Shown here piece by piece: positions 5,796 to 13,997 of a stretch of 23,809 nucleotides of DNA. The DNA is from a virus. The translations under genes and the position numbers were made by a program. Under the pieces are notes generated by a model. The model made no database searches and was not told the DNA's origin. It worked only from the letters and a program-made list of their open reading frames with translations. The stretch is from IMG/VR virus record IMGVR_UViG_3300020281_000129, positions 1-23,809 of that record, one strand, 5' to 3'. Every line of letters starts with the position of its first letter. Position 1 is the first letter of the stretch.

Positions 5796-8700
5796 TTATG
5801 CATAATCTTGAGAACCAAGATCAAAATTACCTTCGTCATCATAGAAGTCTAGTCCCAGATAATCATCATCGTCGCCGCCACCGCCGCCGCCACTTCCATC
5901 AAGATCAAGGTCATCTGCGCCAGGGTCGGGACCAAGGTCATAATTGGTATCATTAAAATCAACAATATTTCCATTTGCATCAACACATGCCGATAAACCA
6001 CATGTGACACCCTCAGGTAACCCGCTTCCGTAATCAGAAGGTCCTTGAAGACCATTTCCATCAGGGGGGAGTGGATCATATCCACTACCAGGCACAAACT
6101 GTGGTGTGGCACCAAGGAAGTTTCCATCTATGCCTTCAAACGAGTAAGTTTGAAATATTGGAGGATTTGTGGGAGGTCTGTAACGCCCCGGTGTTCTTTG
6201 TAATGCTCCAGGTTGGATATATTGTGTTGGTTTACGTTTATATGTGTATCGTCTATAGTATTCTGGTGGATAATAAACCCAAAATCTTTCTGGATACTGA
6301 TTACTAATACTACTTGAACTTGTTCTGTGAATATATTCACCACTACCACTATGATATTCACCTGTCATTGGATATCCATTGTGATAATGGAAATCTCCAT
6401 AGAAAGGTTCACCATTTACAAATCCAACTTGATCATCATCAATAACTTTGCTATCCTCTGAATCTGGCTCTCCTGTCATCTTCTTACCAGTTGTTTGATC
6501 AATGTGGAATTCACCTTCATAAGGTTCGCCATCAACATATCCAACTTGATCCCCTTTGTATACTGGTTTGAAATTATTATCTGGTGCGACTCCTGATAAC
6601 CTCTCACTTTCAGATTTACTTTCGTAAATGACTTGGGAATTTGGAGAAGGTGCTAATCCTGTCATCAGTCTTCCGCCTCCGCCGCCGGATCCTCCTTCAG
6701 AAATATGGGATGGTCCAGTATAAGGAATACCATTCACATATCCAACAATTTGTTTACGCTCTTCAGTGATATATTGTGATCTCTCCGAATGCGTTGCGCC
6801 AGTCATTAGTCTTCCCTCATGGATATGAGTTGGACCCCTATATGGTTGATTATCAACATATCCAACAATATTATCAACACCAATACAATCAATAACCTCC
6901 TCAACTGGTCCTCCCAATCCTCTCAGTCCAAGTTTAGGAATGAGAATAGCACCACTACCATTTACACTGGTAACAGTAATTATTGGCAGTTCAGTTGTTT
7001 CTACGGTAGTTCTAGGAATAACCTTAGTAATTAATCCATTAACAATATTTGCACTGTATACATTTCCAAGATTATCAGATACAATATCACCATCTTCATA
7101 ACCAGAACCTGGATTAACGATATCAACCCTACCCACAGTTAATGGTAATACTTCTTGAACAGGATAATTTTCACCAATAGAAGACAAATAAATTCTATCT
7201 ACTCTTCCATCCTTTACTGTTGCCCTAGCGATAGCACCATATCCTTGATTACAACTGTCAACAATTTGAACAAATGGTGGATACGTGTATCCATTTCCGG
7301 GATTTGTTATTTGAACATCAATAATGCTTGCTGTTCCAGTTTCAAAGTCTGGAAATCCGAAGAGTGGAGCGGCAGCAGCACCATCTCCTCCACCACCAAA
7401 TATTCTAATAATTGGTGGTCTACAGATTTGTGGTGGACCAGTATAACATCCACCTATATCACTGACAAATCCTGGTTTCTTAGAGTCTGGATTGAATATA
7501 TCAAAGGCACCAACCACACCCCTAACACCTTCAGCAACATCTTGAACACCTTCAAGATCAAGTCCTGCAACATTAGCAACATTTGTAGCTACCTTGGCAA
7601 TATTTGCATTATCAATAATTCCCCTTAAATCAGTTGGATCATTGAATGCTGGTCCAACACCCAAAATAGATTTACATGGACCCATTGCATCTTTCTCTTT
7701 TTGATCATTACAACCAGCAACACCAATCAGACCCAGAAGACCACCAATAGTGTTTCTCATCAAGTTCTCAACAAATTCTCCTGGACTACCAAAAGCGTTG
7801 ATAAACTGCATAATTTTATTAAGACCACCAAGGGCACTACTTAATCCATCTGCCGCCTGACCAATAACATCATTAACAAGAACTCCTACCGTTTGATCCG
7901 CTACACACTGAACAAAATTATCAACATTGTCAACAATTGAACTAAGAACACTCTCTACAGTGTTCCCAATCTTACCTAAAATTGAATTGACAATACAAGG
8001 TAATTGATCTTGCAGAAATTTGATTGGAACTGCCATAACTTGTTGTGCGGCAAGACCTGCTGCTCTAGCAATAGAATATACTCTTGTAGCAGCAAACACT
8101 AAATTAAATACTTTTTGATATAGCATTTCAAGTCCCTTTTTCATCAAAGGAATTACCTGCTCAGCAAAGTCAACAATCATACCATTGACAAAACCAGATG
8201 CTTGCCCAACTATTTGTTCTTTTCTAACTTTAATTTCTTGCTTGATCCAGTCTTTTACAAATTCAGAACCCTCATCAAAGTCAGCTTTTATTCTCTTAAC
8301 AGAGTCACTAAATTGCTCAACAGCATTTCTTATGTCTGTAAGATGTTGACTACCCTTAGCATCTTTAGGACTGTCATTACCGCCACAAGGATTTGTAATT
8401 TTAATTCCATCAGCGGATGATATTACTGGAGCATCAGTTTTAGTTGTATCGTTACTTTGTGGAGATGGTTGTTCTTGAATATCTGACGATTCTGATTGCG
8501 TTCTCACCTTTGCCGAAGGTGGTTTCATATCCTCATTATATCCAGTGAAATTTCCAAAGGGAAGTTTTTCACCATTTTTAGCAGCATACTTAGAATTACC
8601 CAAAGCACCCATAATAATTGGTTGCTGGGCATTCTCATTGTCAAGGAAAAAACCAATTACAGTATCTCCCTGGTTGAAATGAATTGTCTTTGACATGCCA

Positions 8701-8954
8701 GCAGAACCAGTTCCAGTTCCTGGAGGACGCATAACTAACGCCCAAGGAAGGTCTTCATCTCCAAGTTCTGCTGTAGTATAGGGATGATACCCCATAATGC
8801 GAACTTTATATCTTGGTGCACCCCAACTCTCACTACTATCAATCATGGAGTTCAGGGGATTGTCATCAGCATCCTTATAAGGAGCAATCTGCCCTATCCA
8901 CCAGGTAAAACCATCTCTGCCTAAAAAATTAGTATTAAAAGAAAAATCATCCAT
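5796..8954 (-). CDS. 5: Baseplate hub OB-fold protein, gp5-like, without lysozyme domain
   Basis: 1052 residues. The ATG overlaps the gp27-like stop (TAATG). Residues 1-125 match the T4 gp5 N-terminal OB-fold: FTWWIGQI, Y-K-V-R-I-M-G-Y-H-P, DLPWALVMRP, GDTVIGFFLDN, QQPIIMGALGN. No lysozyme-like domain follows. Instead there is a long helical region (about 200-480, several hydrophobic helices), Gly/Tyr beta repeats (NPGNGYTYPP at 551-560, NPGSGYEDGD at 614-623), four G[YF]V-[DN]-x-x-P[YF]...H...MTG repeats (698-875), a Pro/Tyr/Arg-rich stretch, and an Asp/Gly-rich acidic tail (about 1005-1050). The OB-fold supports a place at the tail tip with the gp27-like protein. The functions of the added regions are unknown. 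T4 gp5 is 575 residues, so this protein is nearly twice as long. Confidence 0.85.
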   Translation of the reverse strand: MDDFSFNTNFLGRDGFTWWIGQIAPYKDADDNPLNSMIDSSESWGAPRYKVRIMGYHPYTTAELGDEDLPWALVMRPPGTGTGSAGMSKTIHFNQGDTVIGFFLDNENAQQPIIMGALGNSKYAAKNGEKLPFGNFTGYNEDMKPPSAKVRTQSESSDIQEQPSPQSNDTTKTDAPVISSADGIKITNPCGGNDSPKDAKGSQHLTDIRNAVEQFSDSVKRIKADFDEGSEFVKDWIKQEIKVRKEQIVGQASGFVNGMIVDFAEQVIPLMKKGLEMLYQKVFNLVFAATRVYSIARAAGLAAQQVMAVPIKFLQDQLPCIVNSILGKIGNTVESVLSSIVDNVDNFVQCVADQTVGVLVNDVIGQAADGLSSALGGLNKIMQFINAFGSPGEFVENLMRNTIGGLLGLIGVAGCNDQKEKDAMGPCKSILGVGPAFNDPTDLRGIIDNANIAKVATNVANVAGLDLEGVQDVAEGVRGVVGAFDIFNPDSKKPGFVSDIGGCYTGPPQICRPPIIRIFGGGGDGAAAAPLFGFPDFETGTASIIDVQITNPGNGYTYPPFVQIVDSCNQGYGAIARATVKDGRVDRIYLSSIGENYPVQEVLPLTVGRVDIVNPGSGYEDGDIVSDNLGNVYSANIVNGLITKVIPRTTVETTELPIITVTSVNGSGAILIPKLGLRGLGGPVEEVIDCIGVDNIVGYVDNQPYRGPTHIHEGRLMTGATHSERSQYITEERKQIVGYVNGIPYTGPSHISEGGSGGGGGRLMTGLAPSPNSQVIYESKSESERLSGVAPDNNFKPVYKGDQVGYVDGEPYEGEFHIDQTTGKKMTGEPDSEDSKVIDDDQVGFVNGEPFYGDFHYHNGYPMTGEYHSGSGEYIHRTSSSSISNQYPERFWVYYPPEYYRRYTYKRKPTQYIQPGALQRTPGRYRPPTNPPIFQTYSFEGIDGNFLGATPQFVPGSGYDPLPPDGNGLQGPSDYGSGLPEGVTCGLSACVDANGNIVDFNDTNYDLGPDPGADDLDLDGSGGGGGGDDDDYLGLDFYDDEGNFDLGSQDYA
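6330..6863 (-). repeat. Four His/Met motif repeats in gp5
   Basis: Protein repeats at residues 698-729, 738-776, 805-838 and 844-875 share GYV-[DN]-x-x-PY-x-G-x-x-H-x-x-x-G-x-x-MTG followed by a Ser-containing end and a closing [VY]I. The second copy has a Gly-rich insert. Conserved His and Met could bind a ligand or metal. This is inference only. Confidence 0.75.
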
Positions 8955-10309
8955 TAGCTTGATCTTTTTGGTGAACCGTGAGTATCTCTAATCAATTTCA
9001 TTGAGGTTGTGGATTGCTCATTGTCAAAGTGATGACACAACTCTTTAATCATATATAGACCACTCAATTCAGGATCAAATTCTTTACTTTCCGAAGAGGT
9101 TTTAGGAAAGTTACACTTAATAACATCACCAACTTCAAGATTTGTATTGACCGGAACTTGAATATCTAACGTCTGCATAAACAAAAGGTTATATCTCATA
9201 ATAGATTGCCTCTGATTATCAAAACCATTTGCATTCACTACCGGGAGATTAGAATCTGTCTGTGGTACATAAGCATCCTTTTCCATGGTCCCAACATCAC
9301 CGACCATGGAAATGATTCTACTAGGCAAATTTGTCAATTTTGGAGAACCAAGGATTTGAGGTATCTTAAAATCTTCACCCAACTTTACTCTTGGTTCTTT
9401 TTCTTGGATACTATAAAGACCTTTTGAAACACTGGAAAATCCACCAGTAGCAGGATTGAATTCTACAAAGAAAGAAGAATACATGCCTCTTCTTAATTTT
9501 GAAATCAAGTCATGATTAAGCGTAATGCTATATCCAAGTATTAAATCATCCGTATATTCTAAAGGTCCTGGAGCAGCAGGTTTGTAACTATATTCTGATT
9601 TTGGTGAAGCAATTCCCTGCTGAATTAATGATGATACTGATTTGAATTTGAATCCCTTCTGTGTTTGATAGAAAAAATATCCTGCTTCTTTATTTTTATC
9701 CACTGCTTTTGATGCCAACCAAACCAATATATTAAAAGGTTTCTTCATATTCCCCATGAAACCATACTGATTAGAGGAATCATCAGAATCAATAACTTTA
9801 GACCCAAGTTTATCCTTTACTATAAGACCTACAGACGTTTGAATAGGCAAACTTCTAGGAAATTTTTCATGAACTCTTGAAATTTCATTTGCGATAGATT
9901 CTCTTGAAACTAAATCTAAGGTAATCATTTCTCTGTTACCCTGCTTGACTCCAGAGGTTATCTTTGAAACATAAAAGTATGTTTCAGCACTATTGAAATC
10001 TAATGCTGGATTACCACCACTGCCTATTGGTCTACCAAAAGGTTGAATTTTTATCGCCACTCTTTCCCCACCTCTGAGTGGAAGACCACTGTAAATTGAT
10101 TCTGCTTTCCCATCTTTACTATTATCCGCAACCACTACGTTACCACCATCAACTATAGTTAACTTGGCAGTTCTCGTTGGGGAAAACAAATCTTCGTAGT
10201 AATTAAAACTAATTACACCTTGACTAATATCAATAGTCTTATCAGGATTGAATGAAGATTCAATCGTGAAAACTTGATATGAAGATGTTTCTACTGCTTT
10301 TCCTGCCAT
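8954..10309 (-). CDS. 27: Putative baseplate hub protein, gp27-like
   Basis: 451 residues. Its ATG overlaps the upstream stop (TAATG) and its own stop overlaps the gp5 ATG, so the three genes are translationally coupled. The N-terminal part (ISQGVISFNYYEDLFSPTRTAKLTIVD at about 28-54, then TYFYVSKITSG) resembles the first barrel domain of tail-hub proteins of the gp27 / Mu gp44 type. The later part has TLDIQVPVNTNLEVGDVIKCNFP and SGLYMIKELCHHFDN, typical of the second hub barrel and its closing strand. Being adjacent to the gp5 OB-fold gene supports assignment as the hub trimer that gp5 docks into. T4 gp27 is 391 residues. The call rests on motif layout and neighbours, not on strong identity. 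Confidence 0.65.
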   Translation of the reverse strand: MAGKAVETSSYQVFTIESSFNPDKTIDISQGVISFNYYEDLFSPTRTAKLTIVDGGNVVVADNSKDGKAESIYSGLPLRGGERVAIKIQPFGRPIGSGGNPALDFNSAETYFYVSKITSGVKQGNREMITLDLVSRESIANEISRVHEKFPRSLPIQTSVGLIVKDKLGSKVIDSDDSSNQYGFMGNMKKPFNILVWLASKAVDKNKEAGYFFYQTQKGFKFKSVSSLIQQGIASPKSEYSYKPAAPGPLEYTDDLILGYSITLNHDLISKLRRGMYSSFFVEFNPATGGFSSVSKGLYSIQEKEPRVKLGEDFKIPQILGSPKLTNLPSRIISMVGDVGTMEKDAYVPQTDSNLPVVNANGFDNQRQSIMRYNLLFMQTLDIQVPVNTNLEVGDVIKCNFPKTSSESKEFDPELSGLYMIKELCHHFDNEQSTTSMKLIRDTHGSPKRSS

Positions 10310-11727
10310 TACGCTGATAAGGTATGTTCTTGCATCCTAAAAAATGTTTCCATACCACTATTTAACCTAGAAGTTGGGAAGGAAGCAATAGAAGACGCTC
10401 CTTGATTCATAGGAGTAGATCTTTGAGCTGGTTGTGGTGCACCATTAATAATAATATTATTTGTTGCCACAGTTTGTGTTTGTGGTTGACTAATGATACT
10501 GCTACGAGTTTGAAAATTGCGATTGAATCTTTGAAATAAATTTCCTCTCCCAGGAGGATCAAGTTCTTTAGGGGGTGTGATATTATCAGACTGACTCGTA
10601 GGAGGTTTTTGATACTTTGAAGAATCAAAATCAAAGTGTGTTGAATCTGGAGAATATGTATTGTATATGAATCCAAATTTAGAACCGTTAGCACGAATCC
10701 ATTCGTCACCAGGACCAGGATTCATCATATTAATATCAAAAGCATTTCCTGTAAGATGATTAGATCCCTCAACACCACCAACACCAGCATTCTTTTGTGG
10801 ATCTCTCAAAGAACTTGTAATATATGAACCAAGATTAGCAATACCATCTGCTTCTGCTGCCTCTGCCATAGCTTTGAATGCCTCAGCGGCAGCAGCAGAT
10901 AATTTAATTGGTCTACCTTTATAATCTTTATATCCAGTATCTACAGGTCCTGTAGTTGGTGGATCAGTAATTGGTTGTCCTTTACTATTAACAGGATATG
11001 TGGTGTTGTTATTATTTTCAAAATTTACTTGATTTGAGGGACTTTCTTCTCCAAATAATTTTGAAATATCAAAATCTTTCAAATCAATATTCATCTGCTG
11101 AAGAAGACCTTGAGAGTCCTGTGCCAACATTTGAATTCCTCTTTCTGTAGAAAGGACCATTCTTTTGAAGGCATCATTCATTTTTGCCGTGGAGTTCTCA
11201 ATAGAAGTTTTAAATGTTTCAAAATTGAGATTGGTAATACTAGTGAATATTCCACCTATACCTTCACCAAAAGCAGTGAATAAATCAATTGTTCCACCAA
11301 AGAAATCCCTAATTACTCCCGAATATTCTTGCAGTCTTCCCGAAAAATCCTCTATTGTTTTAATAATTTTTGGTAGATTTACAACTGCCCATCCAACAAG
11401 AAGAGTACCAACAAAATCCATGATTCTGCCAAGGAATCCCTTTGTGCTCCTAACAATACTATTGGAGGGTCTTGAAGCAATAGTCATTCTACTTGTGGAC
11501 GATGCTTCAAGGAGATCCTCTCGTTCTTTTTTTCTAACAGAGTCCCTTCTCATTTTAAAGAATTTTGAATCGCTTGAGATTCCTTTCTTTTTTTGAAGAT
11601 TACTGTCTCTCAAAGTCCTAAAGATTGATGACGCAGACTTTGTAGTTGCAGCAATACTCTTCTGCAATCCAGAAATGGAATCTCTTATACCACTAAGACT
11701 TCTACCCGAACCATATGCGTATGCCAT
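10309..11727 (-). CDS. Tail protein with M15 (VanY-like) peptidase domain
   Basis: 472 residues. Regions in order: a basic, helical N-terminus (1-95); a hydrophobic segment (FVGTLLVGWAVVNLP, 105-119); amphipathic helices to about 225; a Pro/Thr linker; and a domain at about 270-370 with the signature of zinc M15 D,D-peptidases. The latter shows SSLRD (305-309), SNHLTGNAFDIN (322-333; predicted zinc ligands His324 and Asp331), W343, KFGF, and DSTHFDF (361-367; predicted catalytic Asp361 and zinc ligand His364). A Gln/Pro-rich end with NNIIING follows. It lies between the tape-measure-like and hub genes, so I infer a virion-carried peptidoglycan hydrolase that opens the wall during injection, replacing the lysozyme domain missing from gp5. 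Confidence 0.75.
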   Translation of the reverse strand: MAYAYGSGRSLSGIRDSISGLQKSIAATTKSASSIFRTLRDSNLQKKKGISSDSKFFKMRRDSVRKKEREDLLEASSTSRMTIASRPSNSIVRSTKGFLGRIMDFVGTLLVGWAVVNLPKIIKTIEDFSGRLQEYSGVIRDFFGGTIDLFTAFGEGIGGIFTSITNLNFETFKTSIENSTAKMNDAFKRMVLSTERGIQMLAQDSQGLLQQMNIDLKDFDISKLFGEESPSNQVNFENNNNTTYPVNSKGQPITDPPTTGPVDTGYKDYKGRPIKLSAAAAEAFKAMAEAAEADGIANLGSYITSSLRDPQKNAGVGGVEGSNHLTGNAFDINMMNPGPGDEWIRANGSKFGFIYNTYSPDSTHFDFDSSKYQKPPTSQSDNITPPKELDPPGRGNLFQRFNRNFQTRSSIISQPQTQTVATNNIIINGAPQPAQRSTPMNQGASSIASFPTSRLNSGMETFFRMQEHTLSA

Positions 11728-13103
11728 TAGATTCCGATACCTCCAACATTATACTGGATATATGAATGCATCATATAAGGGTTGTCAGAATTGGTGCTAG
11801 GAATGAATACTATGTTGTTACCAGTTCCAGATCCTCCAGAAGTTGAAGTTTCTTCAACTTGTCCTTGACCACCACCAGCATTAACAATCAAATTATTCAC
11901 CCTCTGCTCATCCCGCTTTAAGTCTGCTTCACTCTTTGTTGCCCCACTAATTAAGGTACTGAGATCACCACCAACCAAGTCACTAAGTGTGGTATCTCCA
12001 CCAGGAACTTGTATCCCCGATTGGCGATATAATTCTGGAAGTAAAAAGGATCCTCCAAAACCACCAGCAAGTCCAAGTAATGGAGCCATTATGGGAGATG
12101 CTGGACCAGTAAGCATTCCAAGTCCAAATCCAATTTTACCACCTAAAGTCGCACCACCTCCAGCTAAAAGTGATTGATCTAGAGGTGCTCCAAAAAGAAA
12201 ATTCAGACCAGCAATACCTGCACCACCAGTCAATCCACGCAATAGTCTTGTACCAATATTACCTCTAGTCGGTGGAGTGGGTGAAGTGGGTCTTCCACCA
12301 GGTGTAGTGGTTTGCTGACCGCTAGGTGGATTAGGTCTTCCGCCAGATGTAGGTCTTCCTCCAGGTGTGGTCCCAGGAACTTGTGGAAGACCGCGAATTT
12401 TATTTACGATACCTGATAAAATGCCACCAGCAAGAGTAAACGCAGCTTGAATAGGTCTAAGTAGGAAGTTTCTGAGAGCAAAACCACCTAACCTAGCAGT
12501 TAAAGCACCTAATGTTCTTAATGCTAGTACAAATCCACCATTAAGACCTATGAATATTGCTGTTACTATCGCAAGGTCTTTTTTTATTCTGTCAAATAAA
12601 TTTCCAAGAGAAAATTTACCCTCAGAAGATAAATCACCAACTACTTTTAATATACGAGCACCTAAAGCACCACCTATTAAGATTTGGAAGAATCTACCAA
12701 GATTGAACAGAGACCTTTGTGCTTTACCACCTATCTTTTGTAATGGTGCGGCAAGAGCAGACTGTATTCTTTTTTCAATTAATCCTTCTTTCCCTTCGCG
12801 TATTCTCTGCGATGCTAATATTCTTTCTTGATTATCTTTCTGTCTTTGTTGTGCTTGCTCTAGTATTCTTGACTGCTCAATCTGAGCAGATATTGCCTGA
12901 AAAGAATTATTTAAACCTGCTATCTGGTTGGTGACATTAGCGAGAGATAGGTTGACACCTTGAAGTGCCATTTGATTTCTTCTTAACGCCGCTACAGTTT
13001 CAGGGTCTTGTACTGGTTGTTCAGGACGACCCATGATTGCGTTAGCAGGAATCATATTCCTCCTAACTCTCATTCCTAGTATTGGCGACGAAATCTCAGC
13101 CAT
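11727..13103 (-). CDS. Putative tape-measure-like tail protein
   Basis: 458 residues. The ATG lies inside the 3' end of the small ORF (8-nt overlap) and the stop overlaps the next gene (TAATG). Residues about 35-115 are a likely coiled coil rich in Gln, Arg and Glu. Residues 137-235 contain several hydrophobic stretches (FFQILIGGALGARIL, LAIVTAIFIGLNGGFVLALRTLGAL, AFTLAGGILSGIV). Residues 244-280 are a Pro/Gly/Thr linker with repeated TPGGRPTS. Residues 285-355 are Gly-rich and hydrophobic. The C-terminus has NNIVFIPSTNSDNPYMMHS. Helix plus membrane-like segments, and the position directly after the predicted gp26 frameshift, match tape-measure genes of long-tailed phages. At 458 residues it is short for a sole tape measure, so it may work with the next gene product. 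Confidence 0.55.
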   Translation of the reverse strand: MAEISSPILGMRVRRNMIPANAIMGRPEQPVQDPETVAALRRNQMALQGVNLSLANVTNQIAGLNNSFQAISAQIEQSRILEQAQQRQKDNQERILASQRIREGKEGLIEKRIQSALAAPLQKIGGKAQRSLFNLGRFFQILIGGALGARILKVVGDLSSEGKFSLGNLFDRIKKDLAIVTAIFIGLNGGFVLALRTLGALTARLGGFALRNFLLRPIQAAFTLAGGILSGIVNKIRGLPQVPGTTPGGRPTSGGRPNPPSGQQTTTPGGRPTSPTPPTRGNIGTRLLRGLTGGAGIAGLNFLFGAPLDQSLLAGGGATLGGKIGFGLGMLTGPASPIMAPLLGLAGGFGGSFLLPELYRQSGIQVPGGDTTLSDLVGGDLSTLISGATKSEADLKRDEQRVNNLIVNAGGGQGQVEETSTSGGSGTGNNIVFIPSTNSDNPYMMHSYIQYNVGGIGI

Positions 13104-13284
13104 TTAAGTTAGATTGTTGTGCTTTAAGATTTTCTTCTTCAATGTATTGCTGTAAGAATGTGAGATAGACTTCTCTTTCCCACGGTATCATGTTTTCAAT
13201 CTCTGTTAATGAGTATTTATGATGCTGAATCAAGGCAAAATTTGTTTTGAAGTATGACTCAAGGTCCTCATGAGCCATACTCAC
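13096..13284 (-). CDS. Small ORF, likely expressed as -1 frameshift extension of gp26
   Basis: Reading from GTG 13284 gives 62 residues; the in-frame ATG at 13278 gives 60. The peptide is acidic and helical with a conserved-looking core (LIQHHKYSLTEIENMIPWERE). No Shine-Dalgarno sits at a usable distance from GTG or ATG: GGAGGG ends 18 nt before the GTG, and the ATG falls inside a predicted hairpin. The frame is open back to a stop about 35 nt upstream of the gp26 stop, and a T TTT TTC heptamer lies in that shared stretch. I infer the ORF is mainly made as the C-terminal 63 residues of a gp26 fusion, although independent coupled initiation remains possible. By position it corresponds to T4 gene 51, but it is far shorter. 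Confidence 0.7.
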   Translation of the reverse strand: MSMAHEDLESYFKTNFALIQHHKYSLTEIENMIPWEREVYLTFLQQYIEEENLKAQQSNLNG

Positions 13285-13308
13285 GCGAAAAAAGCGTTTA
13301 GTCCCTCC
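13250..13308 (-). promoter_or_regulatory. Predicted -1 programmed ribosomal frameshift site
   Basis: Three elements are seen on the minus strand. GGAGGG lies at 13308-13303, with 9 nt to the heptamer. The slippery heptamer T TTT TTC is at 13293-13287, in the gp26 frame as TTT TTC. After 4 nt there is a hairpin with arms 13282-13271 and 13261-13250: 12 bp including two G-U pairs, with a 9-nt loop. The gp26 TGA follows the heptamer after one codon. A -1 slip leads straight into the 62-codon ORF. SD-like element, heptamer and hairpin have the same order and nearly the same spacing as in E. coli dnaX. Confidence 0.8.
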
Positions 13309-13997
13309 AGAAGGATTTCATTATCTACATCAGTATTAGGATTCTTGACCTTTACTGTATGTGATAACTTAGGCATTGTTTCAAAGAACTTTTCAATTTC
13401 TTTGAATTGCTTTGAACTTAACTGCTCAAGAAATTCATTCATCTCTTTAGGAGTGCAGTCAGCAGCAGACCAAGATTCCTCTTCATTAAAAACCTGTTCA
13501 ACACAAGAAGAGATCAAGTTAAACGTTCCTTCTACTGTAATCTCTTCACCACTAAAGTTGTTTTTGACAAACTCACTCATTGATGGATATTTCATTCTAA
13601 GTGTGAGATCACTATCTAAAACAATATCACGAGAGTGTCCCTCACCTTTCTGAACTTTGATATCATCAAGGTTGATTACAGTCGGAACTTGAGTCTTTCC
13701 ATCATCAGGACAAGTGACGAGAACTTCAACATCCTCACCAACAGACTTACCTCTGATGTTGAGGAAAAGATATTCAATATCAAATGTAGCAAGATCATCA
13801 ACCTTGACTCCACGAGTCAAGATACAATTCTTGATTACGTCTTTGACTGCAGAAGCAATCTGACGTTCATCCTCACTTTCCATGGCGATAATTAGAACCT
13901 TTTCTTCACGAACTAGAAAAGGTCTATACTTAATTTTTTTCCCCGTTGATGGCAAAACCAACTCATATGTTGGGGTAGAAATTCTTGGTAAAGGCAT
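13281..13997 (-). CDS. 26: Baseplate hub / tail assembly protein gp26
   Basis: 238 residues, with the typical start of the T4 gp26 baseplate family: TPTYELVLPSTGKKIKYRPFLVREEKVLIIAMESED (8-43). The middle has LFLNIRGKSVGEDVEV and the region after it is acidic. The 0-frame product ends at TGA 13283-13281. A predicted -1 frameshift at 13293-13287 would instead give a 300-residue protein: 237 gp26 residues plus 63 from the overlapping frame. In T4, gp26 is needed to build the central hub of the baseplate and is now thought more likely to help assembly than to be a major virion part. Here the position just before the tape-measure-like gene fits a tail-assembly chaperone. An ATAAATA box lies just upstream, across the end of the gp54-like gene. 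Confidence 0.85.
   Translation of the reverse strand: MPLPRISTPTYELVLPSTGKKIKYRPFLVREEKVLIIAMESEDERQIASAVKDVIKNCILTRGVKVDDLATFDIEYLFLNIRGKSVGEDVEVLVTCPDDGKTQVPTVINLDDIKVQKGEGHSRDIVLDSDLTLRMKYPSMSEFVKNNFSGEEITVEGTFNLISSCVEQVFNEEESWSAADCTPKEMNEFLEQLSSKQFKEIEKFFETMPKLSHTVKVKNPNTDVDNEILLEGLNAFFA

Follow-up and report, generated by a model that had tools for sequence, protein, structure and literature searches.

Organization of the hub operon

The window analyzed here, which derives from a marine cyanobacterial virus, is a stretch of 23,809 nucleotides (positions 1-23,809 of IMG/VR record IMGVR_UViG_3300020281_000129), which carries on its minus strand a tail operon with a gp26-type protein, two ORFs of 458 and 472 amino acids, a gp27-type protein and a gp5-type protein (Table 1). 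The same gene order, gp26, (gp51), -2 protein, -1 protein, gp27, gp5, was found in the cyanomyovirus loci examined, and in some cyanomyoviruses a few small genes precede gp5. We refer to the two proteins encoded between gp26/gp51 and gp27 as the slot proteins. The 472-aa ORF (the -1 slot protein) is encoded in the tail module and contains an M15 domain fused to a structural part. Its N-terminus is homologous to PSSM2_017 of P-SSM2, and hydropathy analysis identified one hydrophobic segment in it (residues 98-116, positions 11380-11436). Helices were predicted at residues 7-211 with low confidence (the full-length model has a pLDDT of 52 and is poor outside the M15 domain). No hydrolase domain was recognized by Pfam in the -2 slot protein of the window, a protein in which some relatives have M15, GH19 or other domains, and neither Phage_lysozyme nor M23 was found in the 32-kb contig that holds the hub operon of the window.

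Table 1. Genes, domains and active site residues of the hub operon.
Feature	Position	Strand	Evidence
gp26-type baseplate hub assembly protein, operon anchor	13281..13997	-	PF12322, E 2e-74
458-aa -2 slot protein, three hydrophobic segments	11727..13103	-	Pfam, hydropathy
472-aa tail-operon protein (-1 slot), M15 carrier	10309..11727	-	ORF; position kept in all loci examined
Conserved N-terminal part, residues 1-200, long helices	11128..11727	-	alignment A7; helices predicted
M15 zinc-peptidase cassette, residues 263-372	10612..10941	-	Pfam PF08291; fold; limits from identity to L065 and L017
Arg308, conserved M15 arginine	10804..10806	-	invariant in 64/64
His324, zinc ligand 1	10756..10758	-	invariant in 64/64
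Asp331, zinc ligand 2	10735..10737	-	invariant in 64/64
Asp361, likely general base (DxxH)	10645..10647	-	position -3 to third ligand
His364, zinc ligand 3	10636..10638	-	invariant in all 63 rows reaching it
C-terminal linker and tail, residues 373-472	10312..10611	-	~40% identity to M23-bearing L007 and L017
gp27-type tail/hub protein	8954..10309	-	phrog_350, E 1e-91
gp5-type central spike, OB-fold, long C-terminal extension	5796..8954	-	PHROG, weak Gp5_OB

The 472-aa slot protein contains an M15 zinc-peptidase domain

A Pfam search of the whole 472-aa ORF identified Peptidase_M15_3 (PF08291) with 27.2 bits against a curated cut-off of 23.2 (E 4.5e-6), and the isolated domain gave 30.1 bits (E 5.7e-7). 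All 64 relatives matched the same family, and PHROG endolysin/peptidase families matched the ORF with E-values of 3e-8 to 1e-6. A PDB search using the single sequence of the whole protein gave no relevant match; the Zn D-Ala-D-Ala carboxypeptidase of Streptomyces albus (1LBU) was reached only with the profile of 64 M15 domain sequences (E 7e-7). The AlphaFold2 model of the domain (pLDDT 89.4, pTM 0.84) best matched the LdcB, VanY and VanXY carboxypeptidases (VIA Z 9-11, maximum 10.9; Foldseek probability 1.00); the next matches were 1LBU (Z 8.0) and Ply500, an endolysin of a phage (Z 7.9). The fold and zinc site of 1LBU and LdcB/VanY are the same as those of the window domain, whereas these proteins are secreted bacterial enzymes with about 20% identity to it. 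Residues 263-372 are thereby confirmed as an M15 zinc-peptidase domain with the M15/LAS fold, and a chance match is excluded.

An earlier note on this DNA had read an M15 signature in this tail protein. The profile search against the Peptidase_M15 families, the confidently predicted LdcB/VanY-like fold and the conserved zinc ligands all bear this out. The residue numbers in that note are correct, but the interval assigned to the domain (10767-10926) corresponds to residues 268-321 and ends just before the zinc ligands; the zinc site spans 10636-10758. Strict back-translated M15 patterns, run against 84,980 genomes of bacteria and archaea, found no relative, a result that leaves room for a bacterial donor.

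Wall hydrolases in the slot proteins of cyanomyoviruses

At least one recognized wall hydrolase was present in the two slot proteins in 68 of 78 non-redundant backbones. The Pfam domains found there are Peptidase_M23, Phage_lysozyme2, Peptidase_M15_3, VanY, glucosaminidase, SLT, GH24 Phage_lysozyme, Amidase_2 and GH19, and the slots often combine a glycosidase with a peptidase. For the 78 backbones, the hydrolase models used had no match in these loci outside the two slot proteins. M15 was found in the -1 protein of 27 backbones and in the -2 protein of 15, but these and the other cassette frequencies are counts within a sample that is enriched for M15, as part of it was fetched by M15. In every locus showing both gp26 and gp27, M15 lies between them. 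Scans with gp27 of S-RIM2 and of L089 added few new loci, and the label 'Mur', given to 14 backbones, is based on seeds picked by eye and not on Pfam. Ten of the 78 backbones [L002 (P-SSM2), L027-L029, L040, L041, L043, L045, L052 and L156] had no recognizable hydrolase in the two slot proteins, nor in gp5 in those cases in which it was scanned. Because these ten show none, a slot hydrolase may be dispensable, or some hydrolases may be beyond profile detection.

The presence of M15 in this slot is not new as a basic fact. In P-HM1 and P-HM2 it has been annotated as 'peptidase M15B and M15C', and in 2010 the P-HM pair was described as diverged peptidases in synteny (PMC3037559); the slot annotation of S-CREM1 reads 'M15 family metallopeptidase'. 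In these three phages M15 is located between gp26/gp51 and gp27 as in the window, but as a VanY-like domain in the -2 protein, whereas the window has an M15_3-like domain in the -1 protein. The slot proteins of S-RIM2 and P-SSM7 (annotated 'endolysin') contain the same M15_3 type (41-45% identity) at the same -1 position, but are much longer and have an additional glucosaminidase domain. Outside this group, the hub protein gp15 of cyanophage A-1(L) contains peptidase and endoglucanase domains that lyse Anabaena cells (PMC10966104). Like the window, A-1(L) is thus a cyanobacterial myophage with a peptidase domain in a tail hub, but it belongs to an unrelated myophage group and its domains lie within the hub protein itself.

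Probable exchange of the hydrolase cassette in the window lineage

The backbones closest to the window, L007-L017, are more than 80% identical to it in gp26 and gp5 (82-85% for gp5) and 75-79% identical in gp27 (tblastn), and their slot carries M23. The M15 domains closest to that of the window (about 70% identity) are found in L064-L068, in which gp27 is about 45% (45-46% for L065 and L067) and the slot N-terminus 37% identical. Within the 472-aa protein, residues 1-200 share 34-40% identity with L065, residues 263-372 share 71% and residues 373-472 share 24%; for L017 the values of these three parts are 58%, 21% and 39%, respectively. The alignment indicates that the N-terminal 200 residues and the C-terminal tail are common to the relatives and that the middle differs. 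In a tree of gp26 and gp27, the window falls into a clade of nine backbones with strong support, where it alone has M15 and the other eight have M23, and the presence of M15 requires at least 12 changes on this tree. Since the closest backbones carry M23 and the closest M15 domains are found on diverged backbones, the sequences suggest that an M15 cassette probably replaced M23 in the window lineage by recombination inside the gene. On the simplest reading, the recent change looks like the exchange of one peptidase for another. A description of cassette exchange between two cyanomyovirus slot proteins was not found in the searchable literature.

The same distribution could have arisen if M15 were ancestral to the clade containing L065 and the window and if M23 had been swapped into the sister lineages. 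L065 and L067 are indeed within the same larger clade, and the example of L069-L070 indicates that M15 domains can remain highly identical despite divergence of gp27. However, this history requires separate gains of M23 in L018, in the L007/L008 pair and in the L010-L017 group, compared to a single change for the exchange. In addition, the M15 identity of 70% at a gp27 identity of about 45% has to be compared with a mean of 43% (SD 10) for backbone pairs this diverged, and the flanks within the same gene are about 25-40% identical. We therefore consider an ancestral M15 unlikely and a recent replacement of M23 by M15 the better explanation.

Cyanomyovirus gp5 lacks the lysozyme domain

A Phage_lysozyme domain was not found in gp5 of the window by Pfam, while the T4 gp5 control was positive (1.3e-12). 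The OB-fold is recognized through matches to PHROG gp5 families and a weak Gp5_OB match in Pfam, so that the description of gp5 in the earlier note, an OB-fold protein without lysozyme domain, is correct. The window protein consequently falls outside the T4 gp5-type tail lysozymes, taken as an OB-fold spike with Phage_lysozyme. The alignment of a profile of 26 cyanomyovirus gp5 proteins with T4 gp5 from the PDB was confined to the OB-fold (residues 9-90); Phage_lysozyme was detected in none of the 26 proteins and Gp5_OB in 18. Pelagibacter phage HTVC008M and Acidovorax phage ACP17 likewise have a gp5 with the OB-fold and without the lysozyme, and gp5 of Sinorhizobium phage phiM7 is also without lysozyme. 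The missing lysozyme is thus a trait of a wide group and not of the window phage alone. It may simply be that gp5 acquired its lysozyme in the T4 branch, a gain there being as likely as a loss elsewhere.

These results bear on a further proposal of the earlier note, namely that a T4-type lysozyme had left gp5 and was replaced by a peptidase in another protein, with a switch from glycan to peptide cleavage. T4 gp5 does contain a GH24 lysozyme where window gp5 has none, and GH24, the Pfam family of the T4 gp5 lysozyme, is found in slot proteins of S-B68, S-CREM2, ACG-2014f and L038. Yet gp5 is lysozyme-free in every cyanomyovirus scanned as well as in HTVC008M, ACP17 and phiM7, which leaves the direction of any move undecided; the nearest relatives of the window have M23 and no glycosidase, and both chemistries often occur in the slots. 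A lysozyme that moved out of gp5 with a switch in chemistry is therefore very unlikely. Judged from sequence comparison, the M15 domain is one of several wall hydrolases that related viruses trade into and out of these tail proteins, so that it does not stand as a singular substitute for the T4 lysozyme.

Several other features of these loci were noted. The gp5 protein of the window is 1052 aa long, compared to 689-696 aa in L007 and L010, whose gp5 shares 82-85% identity with it, and its extra C-terminal part contains several repeats of the type 'GYVDGEPYxGxxHI...MTG'. Cyanomyovirus gp5 genes are labelled 'tail lysozyme' in public records (e.g., NC_020859.1, NC_015290.1, GU075905.1), and no lysozyme domain was detected in them. 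In phiM7 (L163, 2269-3831, minus strand), the gene adjoining the lysozyme-free gp5 encodes an M15_3 domain (E 8e-19), the same enzyme type at a different position.

Active site of the M15 domain

The 472-aa ORF contains the motifs SNHLTGNAFD (residues 322-331) and DSTHFDF (residues 361-367), which fit the M15 zinc-ligand pattern HxxxxxxD plus a distal H with His324, Asp331 and His364. The earlier note had numbered these ligands correctly, and they are invariant in the family (Table 1). Ser322 and Asn313 are also invariant across the 64 M15 relatives. In M15 enzymes, for instance VanX, the enzyme of S. albus and the endolysin of T5, the third zinc ligand is usually preceded by an acid at a distance of three residues. 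At the corresponding position (residue 361) the 64 relatives have His (29), Asp (18), Gly (7), Gln (4), Glu (3) or Thr (3), so that an acid is kept in 21 of 64; the window protein keeps Asp361. Peptidase activity of the window domain is plausible from its sequence, but because the acid at this position varies, activity is not to be assumed for every relative.

This variation at the usual general-base position across the family would also be expected if the domain were catalytically dead or merely a peptidoglycan-binding module. Several observations oppose this: the 64 relatives show no variation at the three zinc ligands, at Ser322 or at Arg308, the aspartate of the DxxH motif is retained in the window protein, and relatives exchange M15 for hydrolases of active type (M23, GH24, amidase). 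An inactive domain is accordingly improbable in our view, and a functional peptidase is preferred for the window. As a separate observation, His (HGGH) replaces the expected catalytic acid in approximately half of the cyanophage M15 domains, possibly forming a variant active site (alignment A6).

Probable site of action of the slot proteins

Mass spectrometry of purified S-CREM2 virions detected both slot proteins of this phage, ORF208 (73 unique peptides) and ORF209 (71 unique peptides) (PMC10665884, Table 3). Both are encoded between gp26/gp51 and gp27, ORF208 with a GH19 and ORF209 with a GH24 domain, and they represent the homologous slot in a distant phage with different cassettes, not the window phage itself. 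The authors called the two proteins endolysins and suggested that they are encapsulated (PMC10665884). Because of the operon position, we consider the tail a more likely place than encapsulation.

An endolysin function, in which the M15 protein is made late and released with a holin for lysis, is suggested by the annotation: RefSeq names several homologues endolysin, and the M15 domain matches PHROG 894 'endolysin'. Such a function is difficult to combine with the position inside the hub operon, from gp26 to gp27, in all loci, with the fusion of M15 to an N-terminus that is conserved and helical and includes a hydrophobic segment, and with the abundance of the homologous slot proteins in S-CREM2 virions (PMC10665884). 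A lysis role is further disfavoured because S-H34 encodes an 'endolysin' separately, at a distance from the hub operon. The probability that the window protein serves lysis is therefore small, and action from within the virion is preferred.

We consider it likely that the 472-aa ORF encodes a tail protein with an exchangeable wall-hydrolase cassette, here M15, which opens the host wall at DNA entry. According to this model, the phage is a T4-like cyanophage and the ORF, located between gp26/gp51 and gp27, would encode a structural component of its tail. The conserved helical and partly hydrophobic N-terminus and the C-terminal tail are proposed to anchor the protein in the virion, with the cassette located between them. 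At DNA entry, the slot protein would most likely pass out of the tail tube together with the DNA or before it, a timing that we infer. The M15 domain is then expected to cleave the host peptidoglycan in its peptide stems or cross-links, activity and bond specificity being predicted from its family, and this cut would let the tail and DNA cross the wall. The window M15 would thus do the job of the T4 gp5 lysozyme domain, which presumably acts at the same step by opening the wall locally as the DNA enters; in T4 the enzyme is a GH24 glycosidase fused to the central spike, whereas in the window it is a zinc peptidase in a separate protein.

Slot proteins as candidate tape-measure proteins

Cyanomyoviruses are among the most abundant viruses of the ocean. 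Both the literature and public annotation name their gp5 the tail lysozyme, while gp5 was without a lysozyme domain in every case examined. One study interprets the diversity of gp5 as host-wall adaptation and reports that no tape measure protein could be recognized in cyanomyoviruses (PMC7029224). We tentatively suggest, as a possibility somewhat short of an even chance, that the slot proteins are unrecognized tape-measure or injection proteins with recombining hydrolase cassettes of at least nine types, located in either protein. If this is true, the slot proteins and not gp5 would be the site of host-wall adaptation, and the label 'tail lysozyme' on gp5 would be wrong in many records. With wall enzymes located in two neighbouring proteins and exchanged as cassettes, host-wall adaptation becomes testable by comparing cassettes between cyanophage-host pairs kept in the laboratory.

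Wall hydrolases in long helical tail proteins of varied architecture are known from mycobacteriophage TM4 and from enterococcal tail lysins (PMC1796659, PMC10194240); these tape measure proteins belong to other phage groups, whereas the slot proteins are only putative tape measures. The predicted helical N-terminus and the hydrophobic segment of the window protein are compatible with a protein ejected through the tail tube, and point weakly to a tape-measure-like function. We do not claim homology to the 'putative tail tape measure' of HTVC008M, for which a weak profile match over 50 columns was obtained with a probability of 7%. The slot proteins of S-CREM2 (L155, 4984-14055) have lengths of 1565 and 1456 aa and its tail measures 418 nm, and for S-H34 (L170, 17304-22321) the lengths are 936 and 735 aa with a tail of 129 nm. 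In these two cluster C phages, the only ones compared, the length of the slot proteins rises with tail length, which is the direction expected of a tape measure.
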